A stretch of 64,000 nt of DNA from Alphaproteobacteria bacterium (GTDB lineage: Bacteria > Pseudomonadota > Alphaproteobacteria > Micavibrionales > Micavibrionaceae): NCBI GenBank assembly GCA_017302165.1, contig JAFLCW010000003.1:124001-188000 (forward strand), in the 5' to 3' direction. A program made the translations under genes and the position numbers. Shown one piece after another: positions 4,786-17,831 of the stretch; the stretch's first letter is position 1; each line of letters starts with the position of its first letter. The notes under the pieces are model-generated. The model saw only the letters and a list, made by a program, of their open reading frames with translations. It did not search any database and was not told where the DNA came from.

Positions 4786-4860
4786 GGGCGGTTAGCTCAG
4801 CGGTAGAGCACTTGCTCGACACGCAAGGGGTCACAGGTTCAATCCCTGTACCGCCCACCA
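4786..4860 (+). tRNA. tRNA-Val (GAC), integration site
   Basis: The gene folds fully: acceptor GGGCGGT/ACCGCCC, D-stem GCTC/GAGC, anticodon stem CTTGC/GCAAG, T-stem ACAGG/CCTGT, encoded CCA. The seven-base anticodon loop is TCGACAC, giving anticodon GAC (Val) with C rather than the near-universal U at position 33. The 3' part from 4811 is repeated at 10755-10807, showing that an integrative element entered here; the 3' half now attached was supplied by the element. Confidence 0.9.
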
Positions 4861-4863
4861 TTT
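4811..4863 (+). repeat. attL: left direct repeat of integrative element
   Basis: This 53-base stretch (tRNA-Val anticodon arm to 3 bases past CCA) is repeated in the same direction at 10755-10807. The first 25 bases are identical. There are three mismatches, all in the T-arm: G/A and C/T in the stem, which compensate each other, and A/G in the loop. Confidence 0.9.
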
Positions 4864-4928
4864 TTATCTAACTTAATCAATAGGTTAGATAAATCCAGGC
4901 CAATCAAAAAATTCACTGAAAGCAGCTT

Positions 4929-4970
4929 GCTACAATAACGCTACATTGGAGCTTGCTACACATGGCTACA
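4929..4970 (+). repeat. GCTACA repeats, probable integrase arm sites (left)
   Basis: GCTACA occurs at 4929, 4940, 4955 and 4965 in direct orientation (spacings 11, 15 and 10). The first pair, GCTACA-N5-GCTACA, is reproduced at 10579-10595 near the right end. Short direct repeats flanking the core site are typical arm-type sites of tyrosine integrases. Here the last two repeats flank and enter the integrase start, suggesting autoregulation. Confidence 0.55.
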
Positions 4971-5954
4971 TTCATAAAACGGGACGGTAAATATCAGGCC
5001 GTCATTCGGCGTAAGGGCTTTCCCACAGTCTGCCGCTCTTTTCACCTCAAATCAGATGCTCAGGAATGGGCAAGACACATGGAGATAAAGGCCGATAGAG
5101 GCGATTTGCCGACCCCTGTAAAGGTTCTGGACGGGTACAAGGTAAAGGATATTCTTGAACGCTATCGGGACGAGATAACACCAAAGAAGCGCAGTAGTGA
5201 CACGGAAATCTATATCCTCGATGCGTTCCTGCGAAACCCGATAGCCAATCTAACGCTGGCACAGATAACCCCTGCTCATTTCAGCGCGTACCGCGATAAA
5301 CGGCTTAAAGATGTAAAGCCGGGTACAGTAAACAGGGAATTAGGGATCATCAAACACGCTTTCGACATTGCGGAGCGTGAATGGAATATCCCTATCAAGC
5401 ATAACCCACTGGCAAAATTAAAGAAGCTCAAGGCACAAAATGCTAGAAGCCGCAGACTGACAGATGACGAATACAAAACCTTAATTGATGCCGTAGATAA
5501 AACCCGCAACCAGCATATCAAAGCCCTCATTAACTTTGCGATTGCAACAGGAATGAGACGTGGAGAAATTTTGCGTCTTTATTGGCATGATATAAACTTT
5601 GAGACAAAGACTTTGTTTATTCCGCTGACAAAGAACGGGCATAGCCGTACTATTCCTTTATCCAATCAGGCAATCGGTATTCTGAGAGATATTCAGGCCA
5701 AGAATGATACAGATAAACAAAGGCCATTCCCTCTATCCGATAATGCTGCAAAGTTAGCATGGCAAAGATTGCTTCGCCGCTCTGGTATTGATGATCTGCA
5801 TTTTCACGACTTCCGACACGAAGCAATCAGCCGTTTCTTTGAACGTGGCCTATCTGTGCCAGAGGTTGCCCTTATCTCAGGTCACAGGGATTTCCGGATG
5901 CTGTTTCGCTATACGCACTTAAAAGCGGAGGATGTGGCACAAAAGCTCGTATAA
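4962..5954 (+). CDS. Tyrosine-type site-specific integrase
   Basis: The enzyme catalyses integration and excision of this element at tRNA-Val. From the ATG at 4962 it is 330 residues: an N-terminal arm-binding region (1-50), a core-binding SAM-like domain (about 60-150) and a catalytic domain (165-330). Catalytic residues are R199 (TGMRRGE), H282 and R285 (HDFRH), H308 (SGHRD) and nucleophile Y317 (FRYTHL). The ATG at 4962 is preferred over an upstream TTG (4953) because GGAG at 4948-4951 is about 10 bases upstream. It lies about 100 bases from attL and is transcribed away from the tRNA, as is usual. Confidence 0.93.
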   Translation: MATFIKRDGKYQAVIRRKGFPTVCRSFHLKSDAQEWARHMEIKADRGDLPTPVKVLDGYKVKDILERYRDEITPKKRSSDTEIYILDAFLRNPIANLTLAQITPAHFSAYRDKRLKDVKPGTVNRELGIIKHAFDIAEREWNIPIKHNPLAKLKKLKAQNARSRRLTDDEYKTLIDAVDKTRNQHIKALINFAIATGMRRGEILRLYWHDINFETKTLFIPLTKNGHSRTIPLSNQAIGILRDIQAKNDTDKQRPFPLSDNAAKLAWQRLLRRSGIDDLHFHDFRHEAISRFFERGLSVPEVALISGHRDFRMLFRYTHLKAEDVAQKLV

Positions 5955-6017
5955 CAAGCATTTATTAGCCGTTAAACGGATTGACGGACTTTCATCGTTT
6001 CCTTAACGTGGCTATCA

Positions 6018-6216
6018 GAACTTCGAGAGAAGTTCCGGGGCGTGATTACCCCTTCCGAGACGGCCTCTAGCATCGGGCCGTTATCAAGCGATGCCTTCTC
6101 GACCTATGGTCGGGGAGGCGGCTGAATATAATAGCGCAAGCAAATAGGCTGCGCCGTTCTCGGACGGTTAATCAACTCCCCGGCTGCCAGAGAAATCTGG
6201 TAGCCGTTTTACTTTT
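6018..6216 (+). ncRNA. Candidate structured RNA: chain of hairpins ending in a terminator
   Basis: Between the integrase stop and the next gene, six or seven hairpins are packed head to tail: 6018-6024/6029-6035 with a GAGA (GNRA) loop; 6037-6040/6049-6052; 6060-6065/6076-6081; 6094-6104/6108-6118 (11 pairs, two G-U); 6134-6141/6148-6154; 6154-6157/6164-6167; and the terminator stem 6181-6191/6196-6206 with a GAAA loop. CTCCCC (6176-6181) could alternatively pair with GGGGAG (6112-6117), which would compete with the long hairpin. TTGACG at 5981 is a possible -35, but no good -10 follows. No known RNA family is recognised. It could be a free RNA or a cis-regulatory leader of the membrane-protein gene at 6232. 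Confidence 0.6.
6181..6216 (+). terminator. Strong rho-independent terminator
   Basis: An 11-pair stem (6181-6191 with 6196-6206, one G-U) is closed by a GAAA loop and followed by TTTTACTTTT. It ends the hairpin chain 15 bases before the start of the next gene, so it terminates the upstream RNA or attenuates the gene at 6232. Confidence 0.85.
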
Positions 6217-6231
6217 AAAAACGGAGTAGTC

Positions 6232-6972
6232 ATGAAGACCGCTATTATATTGGTAATTGTTTCTATTATTGATATTCCGAGCATCATATCAATCATTGGA
6301 GGCTTAAAAGCTAAAAAACTTTGGCAAGTATTTTTGGTCGCATTTGTTGCTGCCGTTATCGGTGAGGTATTGAGTGTGTCACTTAATTCAGCTTACAGCA
6401 TGTTGTCGTTCTTTATGTACAAGCTGTTTGCCCAAATTATAGTAGCTCTTACCGTGTTTGCTATAGTACAAAAAATACGAAAACATAATTCTTCTCGCCC
6501 AGATCAAATAAAGAGAAATATGTTTATTTTTTCTGCTTTCCTGCTTTTGTCATTTTGTAGTTTAAGTGCGGGGATTATCTTCTTGGGCGTATCTAAGGGA
6601 AAAACATTCATAAGTGACAGTAAGAATCAGTATAAAAAAGATTCTTCGGTACAAGTTTCTTCGTCTAAAAATATCAATGAGGGCGATAAAGGTAGAACTG
6701 GAAACATTCTTCTCTATCGAGAAACTGTAGAAACATATTGGAACGATTGGACTGGAGAAAAGTTGTCAGGCGGGAAAGTGCTTATAAAGGGGATCGGAAA
6801 AACGGCTGCATTCGAGGGGGCTGTTCAACTGAAATGTGAAAGCGAGTCAGGCTATGATTGGCTGGAAGCAAAAAATAGCTATGATGGCTTTGAAATAATG
6901 GAATCTGATCTTGATCGAATAGTTCCTGTACAGGTTATTCCGGCTGCATTTGCAGAGTTTTGCGGGAAATAA
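6232..6972 (+). CDS. Membrane protein of unknown function (element cargo)
   Basis: The 246-residue product is not recognised. Four hydrophobic segments lie at about 3-23, 30-50, 57-82 and 96-120. A soluble C-terminal domain of about 125 residues follows and contains YRETVETYWNDWTGEKL and a KCESESGYDWLEAK stretch with no known motif. The start ATG has CGGAG seven bases upstream. A terminator ends only 16-25 bases before it, so expression may depend on read-through of the structured RNA or on a promoter hidden inside it. AT-rich composition matches the element rather than the host. Confidence 0.65.
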   Translation: MKTAIILVIVSIIDIPSIISIIGGLKAKKLWQVFLVAFVAAVIGEVLSVSLNSAYSMLSFFMYKLFAQIIVALTVFAIVQKIRKHNSSRPDQIKRNMFIFSAFLLLSFCSLSAGIIFLGVSKGKTFISDSKNQYKKDSSVQVSSSKNINEGDKGRTGNILLYRETVETYWNDWTGEKLSGGKVLIKGIGKTAAFEGAVQLKCESESGYDWLEAKNSYDGFEIMESDLDRIVPVQVIPAAFAEFCGK

Positions 6973-7086: not shown

Positions 7087-7728
7087 ATGACGGAAAAGAA
7101 CACATTTAAAACCCCTGCTCAAAAAAACTATGCCCTTAAAAAAGAAAAGCTGGACGACTTAAGAAAGGCGGCCAATAAAGGCTCAATGGAAGCCGTTAAA
7201 GCATGGAAAGCCTTAAATCCTGACTGTGTTGATTTGGCTGTGAAGCCCTTAAATTTTGCCTACATCAAAAGGAAAGACTCGACCACAAAAGCAATTATAG
7301 CAGTTGCAAACGCAATGATGCGTCCGTCTAACGAGGGAAAAACACAGGCTGGTATTTTGAAAGAAGTGCAAAATCAGTTCCCTGAAACCCCACTTTATGA
7401 CAGTCTCTGGCAAAGGCAGCTTTCCCCCGGCCTTCTGCGAAGAATTGAAATCATAGTTAATGATCCGCTACCAAAACCTATAAGCCTTAAAGGGTGTAAG
7501 ACGCTCTCGCAAATTAGGAAAAAGCTCGATACCTCTCGGGAGATTACAAAGGGAGCGCGGAGCTTTAAGGTAAAAATCACTTTCACTGGTAAAACTGTTC
7601 TTATCGGAAAGAAAATTTATAATTTAGAAAAAAGATCATCTGGCTATTTTATTCGCGTTCTCGACAAAAAGGGAAAGCGAAGATTGGTAAATATGGACGG
7701 ATTGGCAGCGGCATTATTAAATGCCTAA
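7087..7728 (+). CDS. Basic protein of unknown function (element cargo)
   Basis: I do not recognise a family in this 213-residue lysine-rich protein. Residues 1-50 are predicted helical and strongly charged, 85-150 are mixed, and the C-terminus (SSGYFIRVLDKKGKRRLVNM) looks like a small beta-rich domain. There is no signal peptide or membrane segment, so it is presumably cytoplasmic, and its basic character would suit nucleic-acid binding. It converges on the methyltransferase gene with 74 bases between stops. A small palindrome lies just upstream of the start. Confidence 0.6.
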   Translation: MTEKNTFKTPAQKNYALKKEKLDDLRKAANKGSMEAVKAWKALNPDCVDLAVKPLNFAYIKRKDSTTKAIIAVANAMMRPSNEGKTQAGILKEVQNQFPETPLYDSLWQRQLSPGLLRRIEIIVNDPLPKPISLKGCKTLSQIRKKLDTSREITKGARSFKVKITFTGKTVLIGKKIYNLEKRSSGYFIRVLDKKGKRRLVNMDGLAAALLNA

Positions 7729-7802: not shown

Positions 7803-8663
7803 TTATTGTGCAATTTTCCTATAAGGTAATTCAACATGCTTACTGTAAAAGAGAACTTCTGAACCTGATGGGCTTGTGTGGGAAATGCTATAACGAAGAT
7901 TATAAACAGCTTTGTTTTTTAGATCGTATATCTCGTTGATTTCCTGCGCGTTATCATAGGTAACTATCCAGTGCTTTAAAGGACTTTTCTTAATGGCGTT
8001 GGCTACCTTCACATGGTCATCATGACCATAAAAACTAGTGTACAGTCTCTTTCCCTGTACATAGTAGGGAGGATCGAGAAAGACTAAACCTTTAGATTTT
8101 TTATTCGGGATGGTTTGTGTGATGAATTTGAGAGCGTCTTGTCTGTATATCTTGATTTGCTTCGAGTGATTGGCAATAAGGTTTATTCTTCGAACAAGCT
8201 CTTCTTTATTGTATCTTGCATTGATCTTGTAATTGCCAGTTTGATCGTTCCCGCCAATTACTCCTGCATTTATAACGCCTGATCTGTTTGTTCTATTTAG
8301 AAAGAAAGTTGAAAAGCCCAAATCAAGATAATCATAGTCGTCTTTCTTTTCTTGGATAAGTTTCTGCTTTTTCCATTCCTTCATGTTTACGGGTGTGTCC
8401 CATATCCGTTTAATAAATTCGTCTGTTTCACGAAGTGCCGCATACCAAAAGCTGTATATAGACTTGTCAAAGTCGTTTATATGAATTTCTGAAACGTAAT
8501 CCTCAATCAAAAGTCCTAGAGCAATGCTTGCGCCTCCTGCATAGGGTTCGCTGTAACTGCCACCATCTAAACCATTGTGCACAATTAAATCTTTAACAAA
8601 CTGAAATAATTTTCCCTTGCCTCCCGGATAACGTAAGGGGGAGTAATGCGTGTTCCCGTTCAT
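7803..8663 (-). CDS. D12-class N6-adenine DNA methyltransferase (Dam family)
   Basis: It transfers methyl from S-adenosylmethionine to adenine N6 in DNA. The 286-residue protein has the Dam-family order: RYPGGKGKL (11-19, next to the SAM site), PYAGGAS (40-46, motif I), FLNRTNRSG (121-129), then catalytic DPPY at 197-200. Target sequence is not readable. Its start overlaps the stop of the ParB-like gene by one base (TAATG), so the two are translationally coupled. It could protect the element's host from the partner protein, act in regulation, or mask the element from restriction. Confidence 0.88.
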   Translation of the reverse strand: MNGNTHYSPLRYPGGKGKLFQFVKDLIVHNGLDGGSYSEPYAGGASIALGLLIEDYVSEIHINDFDKSIYSFWYAALRETDEFIKRIWDTPVNMKEWKKQKLIQEKKDDYDYLDLGFSTFFLNRTNRSGVINAGVIGGNDQTGNYKINARYNKEELVRRINLIANHSKQIKIYRQDALKFITQTIPNKKSKGLVFLDPPYYVQGKRLYTSFYGHDDHVKVANAIKKSPLKHWIVTYDNAQEINEIYDLKNKAVYNLRYSISHTSPSGSEVLFYSKHVELPYRKIAQ

Positions 8664-10054
8664 TAGGCTGCCTTTTTGTTTTTGGCTATAAGGGAATCAA
8701 GCAGAGACAAAATAAATGGCTCCAGCGTGGTAAAATCTCCTCGTAACTGGTATGCAGATTTTGAGTGGTATGTTCCCGAATGTTTATTTAAATTTCCTGT
8801 TTCAGAAATATCTTTCAATGGTTTTGCAAAGTCTTTTTTCTGAATTTTTGTGTAACCCATGTTATTCATATAAGAGCCAAGAAAACTATCGAAGGACGTT
8901 CCTTCTTTTTTGCCCATGAGCGCGCTCAAGCTCTCGAAGAAACTCCACGCCCCTGCATAAAGTAGCTGTGGATGCTGATAGAGCGATACAGTACAAAGAG
9001 ACTTATAAAGCCCTATTAACTTTTGAGACTTTAACTCAGATAATTTTTTAGTAAGACCATCTGATTGTTCTATACCGTAGCTTTTTTTGTCTTTTGGAGG
9101 TGATGTTGCTACACTTGTACTTGTACCCGTTGTAACAGCAGTGGTAGTTCCCACCCCTCCACTATTAACTGCGCTAGTTCCTGTCCCGGATCTTGTCCCA
9201 GTTGGTGTTCCAGCGGGAGGTTGAGCACGTGCATTGTCAGGAGATAAAGCAAATTGGCTAATGTACTCATCGACAGACTCTTTATCCGCATACTTTCCAC
9301 TACGAGACAGACTAAGGTCTTTATCTTTCATTGCAGTTAAGAAGCGATTCACCTTATCAATAGCATCTTTAAGTAACTTTTTGTCTGCGCTGGTTTTTAT
9401 GCGTTGGTTTCTATCAGAAAAGAGGCTTCGTGATATTACTCCCTTGTCCAAGGCTGATTTAAAAATCCTACGAAAAACCTCATGTGAATAATCGGTGGAG
9501 TCTATAAAATCTGTCCATATAGGATACTTGTTTTCTGTTTCAAGAAGCAAGGCAAGAGAGTACCAATCATTACCTTCCTCTACTTGCTGATCGTATCTAA
9601 AACGTGCAGCACCATATGCACTCCAACCTATTCTTGACTTACCTTGACCAGCCGCATGACGCTCATAGACGGTTTTGAAAATTAACTGCTTATCGCTTGA
9701 TACCTGCGCCTGAATATCTGAAAAATCAACTTTGTGCTGCAAAAGTAATTTCTCAGCATGATCCCTAATAGCCTCAGTAGGTGAGTATTTTTGGGGGTTG
9801 CTCAAAACTTTTAATGCCGCTAAACGACGATTACCATCTAGCACAATGTTTTTACCCTTATGCTGGTAGACGAGCAACAGCTCACCGAGATCATCCTCTG
9901 CAACGCTGGTAATCAAATTTTTAAAATTTTGTTGGCTCGCTAAGAAAATTTTTTCAATACATGCCTTCTGATTGGGAGCTGCTTTAAACCGATAGTTGTC
10001 TTCATCTAGTAAAAGCTCATCAACTTTGAAAGGTTCTATTTTTTTAAAGCGCAT
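8663..10054 (-). CDS. ParB-fold protein with HEPN-like C-terminal domain
   Basis: This 463-residue protein has three parts. Residues 1-100 look like a ParB/Srx N-terminal domain, with the CTP/nucleotide-site-like motif DGNRRLAALK at 73-82. A helical middle follows to about 270, then a Gly/Thr/Ser-rich linker (about 275-330). The C-terminal 130 residues are helical and end with NLNKHSGTYH near 421-430 and a TTLEPFILSLL helix. That arrangement resembles the terminal N-x-x-H helices of HEPN domains seen at the end of some ParB-fold proteins. The HEPN assignment is inference. It is not a chromosome-partition ParB: there is no ParA or parS-binding HTH. It is coupled to the methyltransferase by a one-base overlap. 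A role in defence or element maintenance is plausible but unproven. Confidence 0.65.
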   Translation of the reverse strand: MRFKKIEPFKVDELLLDEDNYRFKAAPNQKACIEKIFLASQQNFKNLITSVAEDDLGELLLVYQHKGKNIVLDGNRRLAALKVLSNPQKYSPTEAIRDHAEKLLLQHKVDFSDIQAQVSSDKQLIFKTVYERHAAGQGKSRIGWSAYGAARFRYDQQVEEGNDWYSLALLLETENKYPIWTDFIDSTDYSHEVFRRIFKSALDKGVISRSLFSDRNQRIKTSADKKLLKDAIDKVNRFLTAMKDKDLSLSRSGKYADKESVDEYISQFALSPDNARAQPPAGTPTGTRSGTGTSAVNSGGVGTTTAVTTGTSTSVATSPPKDKKSYGIEQSDGLTKKLSELKSQKLIGLYKSLCTVSLYQHPQLLYAGAWSFFESLSALMGKKEGTSFDSFLGSYMNNMGYTKIQKKDFAKPLKDISETGNLNKHSGTYHSKSAYQLRGDFTTLEPFILSLLDSLIAKNKKAA

Positions 10055-10754: not shown

Positions 10755-10807
10755 CTTGCTCGACACGCAAGGGGTCACAAGTTCGATCCTTGTACCGCCC
10801 ACCATTT
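10755..10807 (+). repeat. attR: right direct repeat (tRNA-Val 3' end)
   Basis: This is a copy of the tRNA-Val 3' part with T-arm ACAAG-TTCGATC-CTTGT instead of ACAGG-TTCAATC-CCTGT. It is the displaced original chromosomal 3' end. A second tRNA-like scrap, AGCGGTAGAGCA (10698-10709), identical to the D-arm bases of the intact tRNA, sits about 45 bases upstream. Confidence 0.88.
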
Positions 10808-10872
10808 CTTTCAGCACTTTTTTATATGAACGTTTCCTATGACGATCTAAAAAAGAAACAGAGGTTAAGATA

Positions 10873-13134: not shown

Positions 13135-14086
13135 ATCCACCGACACCGGCGGCGGACGCCGAGATTCCGGCTGGACCTAAAATCACGATAAACAAGGCGG
13201 GTAAGAAAAATAAAATCATGGGCACCGTTAATTTAGGTGGCAGAGAAGCCGCTTTCTGCTCAGCGTTTGACATGCGGACATCCCGAAGTTCGTCAGCCAT
13301 CACACGAAGAGCTTGCGAGACCGACGTCCCATATTGCTCAGCTTGAATAAGCGCCGTTGCAAACGATTTACCGTACCCACCCACACGTTTACCAAAATCA
13401 CCGAGTGCCGCCCGGCGGTCACTCAACATCGCCATTTCGGCACTTAATATCCCCAGTTCCTCCGCTAGCACAGGGGACTGTTCGGCAATTTCATGGGCTA
13501 CACGCTCGACGGTCTGCTCCAGTCCAATACCGCCCTGAACGCAAATCAACATGATATCCAATGCGTCCGGGAAGGTGAAATTCAATTCCTCAATCCGCTT
13601 CATCGCCTGATTTTTAACAATGATTTTGGGTAAATAATATCCCGACAACATCGTACATCCCAGCACCAGCATTTGTACGACGCTGGAAACCTCTTTATCT
13701 CCTTTGCTTAACACCAACATGGCAAACCCTGTTAGTACTAAGGGCAACGTAATCTGTGCCAAAATAAATTTAATCGGTGCCTTAGGATCACGGATACCTG
13801 CTTGAAGTAATTGCTCCCGAATGCCCTCACCCATTTCACCAAACATTTTCTGAATTTTAAAAAATGTGGCGACTGACTCTCTGGCTGACAGGGCTTTTTG
13901 ACCTTTTTTATCAAGACTATCTTTTGTCTGTTGGTATAAATCCTGACGACGTTTTTCAATGATGGATTTAAACCGTTCCTTTTTCTGAGATCTATTCAAC
14001 AAAGGCAAGACAAACGCCGCAAAGGATAAGGCCGCACCTAGGGCACTTCCGATGATAATCAACATATCTGTGCTGATACCGAACAT
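13133..14086 (-). CDS. tadC: TadC pilus inner-membrane platform protein
   Basis: The 317-residue protein has a T2SS-F (GspF-like) domain (FTFPDALDIMLICVQGGIGLEQTVERVA ... VSQALRVMADELRDVRM, quoted in parts) and hydrophobic segments near 8-28, 120-165 and the C-terminus. TadB and TadC form the membrane platform that couples the TadA ATPase to pilin extrusion. It is the last gene of the minus-strand operon, eight bases after tadB. Confidence 0.92.
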   Translation of the reverse strand: MFGISTDMLIIIGSALGAALSFAAFVLPLLNRSQKKERFKSIIEKRRQDLYQQTKDSLDKKGQKALSARESVATFFKIQKMFGEMGEGIREQLLQAGIRDPKAPIKFILAQITLPLVLTGFAMLVLSKGDKEVSSVVQMLVLGCTMLSGYYLPKIIVKNQAMKRIEELNFTFPDALDIMLICVQGGIGLEQTVERVAHEIAEQSPVLAEELGILSAEMAMLSDRRAALGDFGKRVGGYGKSFATALIQAEQYGTSVSQALRVMADELRDVRMSNAEQKAASLPPKLTVPMILFFLPALFIVILGPAGISASAAGVGG

Positions 14087-15066: not shown

Positions 15067-16580
15067 TAATCAAACGCCTCTTCCATCGCGTCCAAAACCA
15101 TGCGCTCAACGCCAAATTGGCGGGCTTTATCCCAGAATTTAGGACGCATCCCGGATGATTTAAGACGGGTGATCAGTTTACCTGTCTCATCTTCACCCTC
15201 GATTTCCAGCTTAAAGAGATCCTGCATGGTGACAACGTCCCCTTCCATGCCTGTGATCTCTGAAATATGGGTGACCTTACGTGATCCATCACGCAGACGT
15301 TGTACCTGTAGAATTACATTCACCGCAGAGGCAATCTGTTCCTTGACGGCTTGTTGTGGCAGGTTAAGCCCCCCCATCGCAATCATGTTTTCCATACGGG
15401 AGATGGCTTCTCTGGGGTTATTGGCGTGCACCGTTCCCATGGAACCATCGTGGCCTGTATTCATGGCCTGCAGTAGATCAAAAGCTTCGGGGCCTCGAAC
15501 CTCCCCCACGATAATTCTTTCAGGACGCATCCGAAGACAGTTTTTGACCAAATCCCGCATCGTAATTTCACCGACCCCTTCTAAATTGGGCGGGCGTGTT
15601 TCAAGACGTACGACATGGGGTTGCTGGAGTTGAAGTTCACACGCATCCTCGCAGGTGATAATGCGTTCACCGGGTTCAATATACCGGGTCAGACAATTCA
15701 GCATGGTTGTTTTGCCAGATCCGGTTCCCCCAGAAACCAGTACATTCACCCGGCAACGACCGACTGCCATAATCAGTTTCGCGGCACTGGGGGTCATCGC
15801 CCCAAATTCCAACAATTTTTCGAGCGTCAATTTATCTTTTTTAAATTTTCGAATGGTCAAGCAGGCTCCATCCACTGCCAGCGGCGGGATAATGGCATTC
15901 ACACGAGAGCCATCAGGCAGACGCGCATCGCATATAGGGGACGATTCATCGACCCTGCGGCCAATCGCGCCTACAATGCGTTGGGCGATTGTCGTCAAAT
16001 GCTGATTATCCCGGAATTTTATTTTTGTTTTTTCGATCTTACCTTTGACTTCAATATAAGTAATATCAGGACCATTAATCATGATATCGGCGATATCATC
16101 ACGTTCCAAAAGTTCTTCCAAAGGGCCAAAGCCCAACATATCATCGGAACATTCTTTAGATATTTTTGACAATTCTGCCGGCGTGACATCCAGATTCCGA
16201 AAGCGGGCAATTTCTTCAACGGCGGATTTAACTTCAGATCTGGCTTCTTCGGCCTTCATACGCGCCAAAGCCTTGAGGTCAATCCCGTCCCTGAGGTCAA
16301 GCCATATACGGTTGCGGGCACGTTGAAGCCGCAGGGTTGTCATCGGGTCGGCGTGTTCTGCCTCTTCGGCCGTAGGCTCCGCCCCCATGAACATACCATC
16401 ATCAAAGGTCGTAGCTTTTTTTTCCTTGGGTACAACAGGCACCGATTTTTCTACCTTAGCAACCTTAACCTCAGAAACAGGTGATGTTTTGACGTCAGCG
16501 ACATTTGCCGCCTCTGGCTTGGGCGGCGGAGAAGATGATGCTGAGGGTGGAAGACCACCAGATGATTTTTTTCCAAACAT
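15066..16580 (-). CDS. tadA: TadA/CpaF pilus secretion ATPase
   Basis: This is the motor ATPase of the Tad pilus (504 residues). A Pro/Ser/Lys-rich N-terminus (1-60) precedes the CpaF N-domain. The ATPase core has Walker A GGTGSGKTT at 284-292, the Asp box in TCEDACELQL, Walker B region RPERIIVGEVRG and the His box (GHDGSMGTVHAN). It is a cytoplasmic hexamer docking on TadB/TadC. It follows cpaE by three bases. Confidence 0.96.
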   Translation of the reverse strand: MFGKKSSGGLPPSASSSPPPKPEAANVADVKTSPVSEVKVAKVEKSVPVVPKEKKATTFDDGMFMGAEPTAEEAEHADPMTTLRLQRARNRIWLDLRDGIDLKALARMKAEEARSEVKSAVEEIARFRNLDVTPAELSKISKECSDDMLGFGPLEELLERDDIADIMINGPDITYIEVKGKIEKTKIKFRDNQHLTTIAQRIVGAIGRRVDESSPICDARLPDGSRVNAIIPPLAVDGACLTIRKFKKDKLTLEKLLEFGAMTPSAAKLIMAVGRCRVNVLVSGGTGSGKTTMLNCLTRYIEPGERIITCEDACELQLQQPHVVRLETRPPNLEGVGEITMRDLVKNCLRMRPERIIVGEVRGPEAFDLLQAMNTGHDGSMGTVHANNPREAISRMENMIAMGGLNLPQQAVKEQIASAVNVILQVQRLRDGSRKVTHISEITGMEGDVVTMQDLFKLEIEGEDETGKLITRLKSSGMRPKFWDKARQFGVERMVLDAMEEAFD

Positions 16581-16583
16581 TTT

Positions 16584-17831
16584 TTATGTTTTCAATTTAC
16601 TGATGATTTTGTCTAAAACACTGTCTGAAGATGATTTTTTATCGTGAGCCTCAGAAAAAGAGCCTGACACCACTTTTTTAGCGAGCGGTAACAGGCGTGA
16701 GACGATCTCATCCGAAGCCTTATGGTGGCCAATGGCATGACCTTCGTTCTCGCTACCGATAAATAATTTAGAATCATACGAGATAATGGCTGACGGCTTT
16801 TGATCCAGAACTGTATTGATATCAGACAGTGAAATTTCTTTGCCGATAGCCATACCTTGCATATTCAGAACAAGGTCAACGCCTTCGAGTGACCCTCCAT
16901 GCAAAGATTTTATTTCTGCCATGATAGAGCGTGTAAAGCGCAAAGAGGACAATGTCGGCGTTGTTACAATGATAATCTGGTGGGAGCGATTTAATAGCGT
17001 CCGTTTCAAAGAGGGGATAGAGGACGATAAATCTGCTACCACAACTGGGTTCAACCCCATCATCATGTCAATGAGTGTTTCATATTGCTGTGCTTGAACC
17101 GAGGCCTCTAACATGGCTTCGCCACCACACGCCAAAACTTTGAGCTTGTCTGACGCCTGAAAAATCATACGTTTTAGGGTATCATGATCTTTATTGACAG
17201 CGGCGCGAACGGCTTCGGCTAGGCTGGCTTGGGGTTCATATCCCATTGTCACACCCAGAGATGACCATCCCCCTGCGGCATCCAGAAAGAAAGTCTTTTC
17301 GCCGACGCGGTCGGCTATACCCCATGCCAGGCATTGTGCCAACGAAGAGGCACCCACGCCCCCCTTCGCACCAATAACACTAATCAGGCGACTTTCAGAT
17401 GCACCCAATTGGGATATCAGACCACTGGCTAGCGTTTCACCCAAAATATCAGTAGGCACAGAACGCACCAAATAATCGCTAATCCCCATCGCGGTTAACC
17501 GGCGATACAAATTCACATCATTGACGGGGCCAATGACAATCGCATTCGTCCCTTCGGCGCAATAGGCCGATAAGGCTTCCAGTCGGTTGGTAAAGCTTTC
17601 ATCCGTTGTATCTGTTTCAATGATAATCAGTGCCGGAGAGGATACCTGCTGATAATTTTGTATCGCGGTTTCAACATCTCCTTCTTCGATACTGATGGTC
17701 ACCCGCGCAAATCGCCAATCATCGCTTAAGGCACGCGCCGCCTCGATCGTAGATTTATCCTTAAGAAAAAAATCTACGGTGGCAGATGGCAAAAGCACTG
17801 ATGTGCCTTTGTTTTTTTGTTGATCACTCAT
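16584..17831 (-). CDS. cpaE: CpaE/TadZ pilus localisation protein
   Basis: The 415-residue protein has an N-terminal receiver-like (atypical) domain to about residue 135. A ParA/MinD-like ATPase domain follows, beginning SVIGAKGGVGASSLAQCLAW (deviant Walker A KGGVGAS), then FLDAAGGWSSLGVTMG. CpaE/TadZ proteins mark the pole where the pilus is built. The order between cpaD and tadA is standard. Confidence 0.92.
   Translation of the reverse strand: MSDQQKNKGTSVLLPSATVDFFLKDKSTIEAARALSDDWRFARVTISIEEGDVETAIQNYQQVSSPALIIIETDTTDESFTNRLEALSAYCAEGTNAIVIGPVNDVNLYRRLTAMGISDYLVRSVPTDILGETLASGLISQLGASESRLISVIGAKGGVGASSLAQCLAWGIADRVGEKTFFLDAAGGWSSLGVTMGYEPQASLAEAVRAAVNKDHDTLKRMIFQASDKLKVLACGGEAMLEASVQAQQYETLIDMMMGLNPVVVADLSSSIPSLKRTLLNRSHQIIIVTTPTLSSLRFTRSIMAEIKSLHGGSLEGVDLVLNMQGMAIGKEISLSDINTVLDQKPSAIISYDSKLFIGSENEGHAIGHHKASDEIVSRLLPLAKKVVSGSFSEAHDKKSSSDSVLDKIISKLKT

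Follow-up and report, generated by a model that had tools for sequence, protein, structure and literature searches.

PD-Lambda-5 was found in E. coli by functional selection and is described as protecting against most phages tested and strongly against T-even phages (Vassallo et al., 2022, PMC9519451). In the literature that names the system, judged largely by title and abstract, no mechanism for it was found. Fusions of ParB and HEPN domains, as well as operons that combine a MAE_28990 HEPN protein, a ParB and a methylase, have also been described (Anantharaman et al., 2013, PMC3710099). Those fusions and operons, like the locus described here, bring together a HEPN-type domain, a ParB-like domain and a DNA methylase. 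The HEPN domains of the systems in PMC3710099 are, however, listed as active or mostly active, with the Rx4-6H motif kept, whereas in the present class the Arg is Gly and no Pfam HEPN model matches.

Identification of the Gene Pair

The locus lies in a window of 64,000 nucleotides (i.e., the whole stretch of DNA that was analyzed) from an Alphaproteobacteria bacterium of the family Micavibrionaceae. Its two genes are adjacent, on the same strand and arranged as one transcription unit:

8663..10054, minus strand: component A, 463 aa, assigned to PD-Lambda-5_A, with a ParB/Srx-like N-terminus, a helical middle, a predicted disordered linker and a HEPN-like C-terminus (ORF, PADLOC, AlphaFold)
7803..8663, minus strand: component B, 286 aa, D12-class DNA N6-adenine methyltransferase, assigned to PD-Lambda-5_B (PADLOC PDLC04018, PF02086)

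The stop codon of A (TAA) and the start codon of B (ATG) have a single A in common (TAATG; 'cattag' on the plus strand, 8660-8665), which bears out the one-base overlap, and with it the positions and strand of both ORFs, that had been given in a sequence-only reading of this DNA. Residues 1-461 of A are aligned with positions 1-470 of the 472 in PADLOC model PDLC04006 (PD-Lambda-5_A; E-value 9.4e-133, 441.6 bits), and residues 5-282 of B with positions 3-278 of the 291 in PDLC04018 (PD-Lambda-5_B; E-value 2.8e-117, 389.1 bits). Judged by these matches, the pair is almost certainly a member of PD-Lambda-5. It resembles the system of PMC9519451 in that both proteins match end to end, in the same order and size, and are carried on a mobile element, a likeness that is read through the PADLOC models and not against the tested E. 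coli sequence; its carrier is an integrase island at tRNA-Val, whereas that of the E. coli system is a P2-like prophage. The sequence-only reading had regarded the pair as an uncharacterized module. This view does not hold, as PD-Lambda-5 is already known from E. coli, where its phage protection was demonstrated in 2022 (PMC9519451), and as ParB-HEPN fusions and ParB/methylase/HEPN operons have been on record since 2013 (PMC3710099); the present pair is a further member. The defense role proposed at the same time is supported via membership of the pair in PD-Lambda-5, for which phage protection has been demonstrated for the E. coli system only.

The ParB-Like N-Terminus and the Linker of A

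The AlphaFold model of A was built from 43 homologues and has an overall pLDDT of 83.6. In the model, the N-terminus is mixed alpha/beta, the middle helical, the linker disordered and the C-terminus helical and compact. The features of the first three parts are:

9653..10054, minus strand: predicted ParB-CTPase-like domain, about residues 1-134 (Foldseek and invariant residues)
9809..9838, minus strand: DGNRRLAALK, residues 73-82, corresponding to ParB box II, the phosphate-binding 'P motif' (sequence; GNRR in 43/43)
9083..9226, minus strand: low-complexity, predicted disordered linker, residues 277-324 (pLDDT <50)

The top Foldseek matches of the N-terminus are the ParB-CDP/CTP structures 7bnk, 6sdk and 7bnr (probability 0.99-1.00, best E-value 2e-3). 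Box I (N20-x-R22), box II (73-DGNRR-77) and box III (H133...G138) can all be located in this part, and N20, R22, G74, N75, R76, R77, H133 and G138 are invariant in all 43 homologues. The model supports a ParB-CTPase-like fold with a phosphate-binding box II, and NTP binding is predicted. ParB-fold proteins bind CTP, ATP or GTP, and their box II Arg is essential (PMC12704722). A has the GxRR of box II and the predicted ParB fold in common with these ParB-CTPase fold proteins, but differs from them in that its ParB-like domain is not recognized by PF02195 and in that no ParA partner is found on the island. Pfam searches returned zero domains in A or in its 43 homologues, and nothing relevant came from searching the PDB by sequence, whether with A or with a profile of its C-terminus. 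Gly, Thr, Ser and Pro are abundant in the linker, across about residues 275-328. The ParB fold, the nucleotide-type DGNRRLAALK motif and the low-complexity linker that the sequence-only reading had picked out were all supported, the fold by the Foldseek matches.

The HEPN-Like C-Terminus of A

Two features mark the C-terminal part:

8666..9073, minus strand: HEPN-like helical domain, residues 328-463 (AlphaFold model and Foldseek)
8780..8797, minus strand: GNLNKH, residues 420-425, at the position of the HEPN R-N-x3-H, with Gly for Arg (45 homologous C-termini)

When modeled alone, the C-terminal ~136 residues are helical (pLDDT 92.8, pTM 0.88), and the PDB structure at Foldseek rank 1 is the HEPN protein 2hsb (probability 0.96, TM 0.51/0.54, E-value 0.16), with HepT HEPN toxins among ranks 2-5, all at weak E-values of 0.16 and above. 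With the full-length model, 2hsb is found at rank 11 for the C-terminus. As the E-values are weak, it is the consistency of the top ranks that points to a HEPN-like fold, and the models are suggestive of a HEPN helical bundle. HEPN enzymes possess R-[polar]-x3-H at the position of GNLNKH, together with an upstream acidic residue (PMC3710099). In the 45 homologous C-termini, this motif, which lies where the last two helices meet, has G in 45, N in 43, K in 44 and H in 45, while the upstream acidic residue E374 is E in 42 and D in 3. The Rx4-6H catalytic motif is incomplete in A, with Asn and His kept and Gly in place of Arg in every homologue. Read from the sequence, the C-terminus would keep all elements of the HEPN site except the Arg, and its RNase activity is putative. 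Class-2 A proteins, which are related to those of class 1 (hhalign probability 93%), have L-[N/H]-x-[Y/F]-V-H at the motif position and likewise lack the Arg.

Because no Pfam HEPN model matches A or its 43 homologues, the HEPN assignment is based on fold and motif. Comparison of the C-terminus with HepT and Swt1 by hhalign gave probabilities <2%, and the control comparison of HepT with Swt1 was equally non-significant; local alignments to both place G-N-x-x-K-H in register with R-N-x-x-x-H, without statistical support. The resemblance to HEPN toxins that had been proposed from the sequence extends to the fold (2hsb at rank 1 and HepT among ranks 2-5) but not to the catalytic Arg, which is Gly in every member. 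The AlphaFold check of the domain gave a helical, HEPN-like fold; no sequence-profile match to a known HEPN family was found.

The Methyltransferase B

B is a D12 N6-adenine methyltransferase (PF02086, E-value 7.9e-17) in which RYPGGK and DPPY, the SAM-binding and DPPY motifs, are intact and invariant (13/13), so that the Dam-type methyltransferase named in the earlier reading appears to be active. No nuclease match was found among the island proteins by family searches; a classical type II restriction-modification (R-M) system would have a separate restriction endonuclease of a known fold.

The Mobile Island

A and B are the last cargo of an island of ~6 kb, beside tRNA-Val, in a genome of ~2 Mb. 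Its other features are:

4786..4860, plus strand: tRNA-Val(gac), island integration site (ARAGORN)
4811..4868, plus strand: left att repeat, inside the 3' part of tRNA-Val (58-bp direct repeat, 91% identical)
4953..5954, plus strand: tyrosine recombinase, the island integrase (PF00589, E-value 2.4e-33; two sibling genomes have relatives at 72% identity)
6109..6192, plus strand: sRNA-Xcc1-like RNA, after the integrase and before the cargo (RF02221, E-value 1.4e-6, 48.6 bits and so slightly below the gathering threshold of 53)
6232..6972, plus strand: ORF with N-terminal hydrophobic segments (no family match above cut-off)
7087..7728, plus strand: ORF, 213 aa (31% identical over 215 aa to L218:8960-9586, in the island that a sibling genome has at this tRNA)
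10755..10812, plus strand: right att repeat (58-bp direct repeat; the same repeat bounds the related island in L218)

The 58-bp direct repeats, the tyrosine recombinase, the tRNA-Val and the low GC content of the cargo part (~0.36-0.44, vs. ~0.47-0.54 for most of the flanks) substantiate the mobile island that had been suspected from the sequence. The non-coding block at 5978-6215 is better conserved than the integrase gene (80 vs. 67% DNA identity to L218), and the sRNA-Xcc1-like block recurs in 12 of the 31 genomes of the family and is conserved in related islands. In the sibling L218, an island at the same tRNA-Val (13785-13859; distal att at 6870-6921) has att repeats that are 96% identical at both ends, a 72% identical integrase and an ORF homologous to the 213-aa one; in the sibling L219, a 72% identical integrase is found beside tRNA-Pro. 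As the islands of L218 and L219 carry other cargo, this lineage appears to have a family of islands in which PD-Lambda-5 is one exchangeable cargo. Apart from the homologue of the 213-aa ORF, the L218 cargo is different and includes a Sel1-repeat-like protein. The integrase relative of L219 and a cargo whose genes, to judge from their sequences only, would be those of a type III R-M system (Mod and Res-like) are at L219:8378-12498 and 16283-17281.

Conservation and Co-inheritance of A and B

The pairing of A with B is far beyond chance. Among the 43 distinct class-1 relatives of A with enough flanking sequence, 41 have a homologue of B directly downstream on the same strand, in the order A then B and with a gap of about -4 to +85 bp, and the distance matrices of A and B are correlated (Mantel r 0.916, a value reached by 0 of 2000 permutations). 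This gene-neighborhood survey bears out the conserved coupling of the two genes. Both class-1 exceptions are at one locus (L073:5125-8032), where two tandem A-like genes are found with no adjacent methyltransferase. Two other candidates (L159 and L169) were removed from class 1 as short proteins with a chance match to the motif, giving the count of 41/43. Within 4 kb of the class-2 relatives L037, L039, L040, L041 and L043, there is no D12 methyltransferase; L043 has HsdM instead, and no methyltransferase was found for the other four.

The closest relatives of the pair are in a Rhodospirillales MAG (68% for A and 80% for B), two Mucilaginibacter (Bacteroidota) and one deltaproteobacterial MAG, which suggests that the two genes travel together from one phylum to another. 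Divergence from the closest copy at codon positions 1/2/3 is 0.25/0.18/0.57 for A and 0.19/0.09/0.55 for B, a pattern that indicates protein-level selection on both. The pair is also carried by the genome of Paracoccus phage vB_PkoS_Pkon1. A scan of viral contigs with the single protein A gave no relatives, whereas an alignment-based scan did.

Modular Relatives and Arrays

The C-terminal domain of A is also found fused to a GHKL ATPase (PF13589) in L065 (Granulosicoccus) and L067 (Phytobacter), where the gene just upstream encodes a C5-cytosine methyltransferase (PF00145, E-values 1.4e-63 and 2.2e-62, respectively):

L065:4984-6705 with L065:3820-4929: GHKL-HEPN-like fusion with C5-cytosine methyltransferase
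L067:4810-6474 with L067:3383-4798: GHKL-HEPN-like fusion with C5-cytosine methyltransferase

This reuse of the domain suggests that the constant is a HEPN-like effector with an NTP switch and a DNA methyltransferase, and not one methylation chemistry. The two loci are reminiscent of the paraMORC (GHKL)-HEPN proteins in R-M neighborhoods (PMC3710099), from which they differ in that their C-terminal domain is of the A type (GNxxKH) and is not detected as Ymh by Pfam. A third fusion (L066:78-1454) has the same C-terminal domain on a different N-terminus; the overlapping gene that follows it has a CxxC motif and possibly encodes an HNH-type protein.

In a three-gene variant, the first protein is short and ParB-like and lacks the HEPN part, and the next, of ~330 aa (42 sequences), has conserved residues (D..G.D..AW...Q..SG..W..K) that are PD-(D/E)xK-like and mark it as a putative PD-(D/E)xK protein. 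A methyltransferase is often nearby, mostly on the opposite strand, and is D12 or, in an E. coli phage (L188), C5. The middle protein was considered as a MAE_28990 HEPN and rejected, as Pfam gives nothing and the residues look like PD-(D/E)xK. In that phage (vB_EcoM-12474III), which is P2-like, the ParB-like, nuclease-like and C5 methyltransferase genes (L188:4974-8010) are between the portal gene and gene A. This locus was also considered as the PD-Lambda-5 reference and set aside, being the three-gene variant with a C5 methyltransferase.

At six loci from different groups (L097, L100, L107, L111, L120 and L137), the pair of ParB-like and putative PD-(D/E)xK proteins adjoins A and B, and each array has a single methyltransferase. 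As predicted from their proteins, the arrays at these loci are literal, uncompacted 'RM + Abi' arrays. Elsewhere, the class-2 A of L043 is inside a type I R-M operon, in the order HsdM, HsdS-like, A, ATPase and HsdR-like (HsdM being called by Pfam, HsdS-like and HsdR-like by sequence reading), and A of L040 adjoins a Gabija-like ATPase and helicase, as read from their sequences. PrrC and RloC, the anticodon nucleases associated with type I R-M, are likewise back-up HEPN effectors tied to R-M, and L043 has its class-2 A between HsdS-like and HsdR-like genes; the switch is, however, ParB-like here and not an ABC ATPase, and most loci have one small methyltransferase instead of type I R-M. Given the GHKL fusions, the three-gene variant, the arrays, the R-M operon and the Gabija-like context, methylation-guarded defense is the natural reading. 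Tentatively, and with somewhat less than even confidence, we suggest that the GNxxKH domain may define a distinct, Arg-less family of HEPN-type effectors in such defense, with ParB-like and GHKL proteins as interchangeable NTP switches and a neighboring DNA methyltransferase of one chemistry or the other as the guard, and that PD-Lambda-5 may be the compact form of the array, whose single methyltransferase would shield the host from two effectors, a PD-(D/E)xK DNase and a HEPN-like killer.

Proposed Mechanism and Alternatives

We propose, with slightly better than even confidence, that the pair is an anti-phage system in which B marks self DNA, the mark holds A off and unmarked phage DNA triggers the HEPN-like effector. 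B would methylate the host DNA wherever a short motif occurs. A would bind NTP and DNA via its ParB-like part and would close or load, like ParB on parS, only at unmethylated sites, so that methylation would mask the host sites from it. On incoming, unmethylated phage DNA, A may load or assemble, by which the HEPN-like domains would be brought together and activated; these would then act, probably on RNA, and the infection would be stopped in that cell. Confidence in this mechanism is limited mainly by the missing HEPN Arg and by its computational basis.

The missing Arg would also fit a two-gene R-M system in which A is a restriction nuclease whose ParB/Srx-like domain nicks or cuts unmethylated DNA, while the HEPN-like domain only dimerizes or binds nucleic acid. 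Nuclease activity has been recorded for ParB/Srx proteins (cited in PMC12839542), and the three-gene variant has a putative PD-(D/E)xK protein in place of the HEPN part. That separate nuclease-like protein, however, also suggests that the ParB-like part is not itself a nuclease, and the near-invariant N, H, K and upstream acidic residue of the HEPN-like domain go beyond the need of a mere dimerization domain, so that we regard this possibility as unlikely. Less likely still is an addiction (toxin-antitoxin) module that stabilizes the island, in which A is kept in check by B or by B-dependent methylation, a cell that loses the island is killed by A, and phage defense is a side effect. One-base coupling, carriage on an island and a HEPN-like domain are what such a module would have, but E. 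coli PD-Lambda-5 is described as protecting against most phages tested (PMC9519451), and relatives are found in an R-M operon and beside Gabija-like genes. Addiction is not exclusive of defense, as R-M systems are themselves addictive.

The mark could also act with the opposite polarity. In GmrSD-type enzymes, which recognize modified DNA, an effector is joined to a related ParB-like/DUF262 domain, and T-even phages have modified DNA. By analogy, A would be a type IV-like enzyme that attacks modified DNA, with B being an invader marker or an unrelated orphan methyltransferase; the strong action of PD-Lambda-5 on T-even phages (PMC9519451) would agree with this, and a ParB and HNH architecture is mentioned in PMC12839542. 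This is the least probable of the readings and, in our view, very improbable. B is coupled to and co-inherited with A in 41 of 43 cases, the methyltransferase chemistry varies (N6A or C5C) while the HEPN-like domain is constant, and an effector that responded to B's own mark would turn on its own host. For the last reason, methylation as protection fits the operon better, and the modification-dependent attack on methylated DNA that had been put forward in the sequence-only reading is the less likely polarity.

Implications

New here are a HEPN-like effector that lacks the Arg, the recurrence of this effector alongside other switches and methyltransferases, and the arrays of four genes. Comparison with relatives gives the pair testable parts: a predicted NTP pocket of the ParB type, an incomplete HEPN site with named residues and a methyltransferase that is expected to be protective. 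The four-gene arrays make visible the R-M and abortive-infection origin that the discoverers of PD-Lambda-5 proposed (PMC9519451), and one effector domain is now linked to two switch proteins and two DNA-methylation chemistries.
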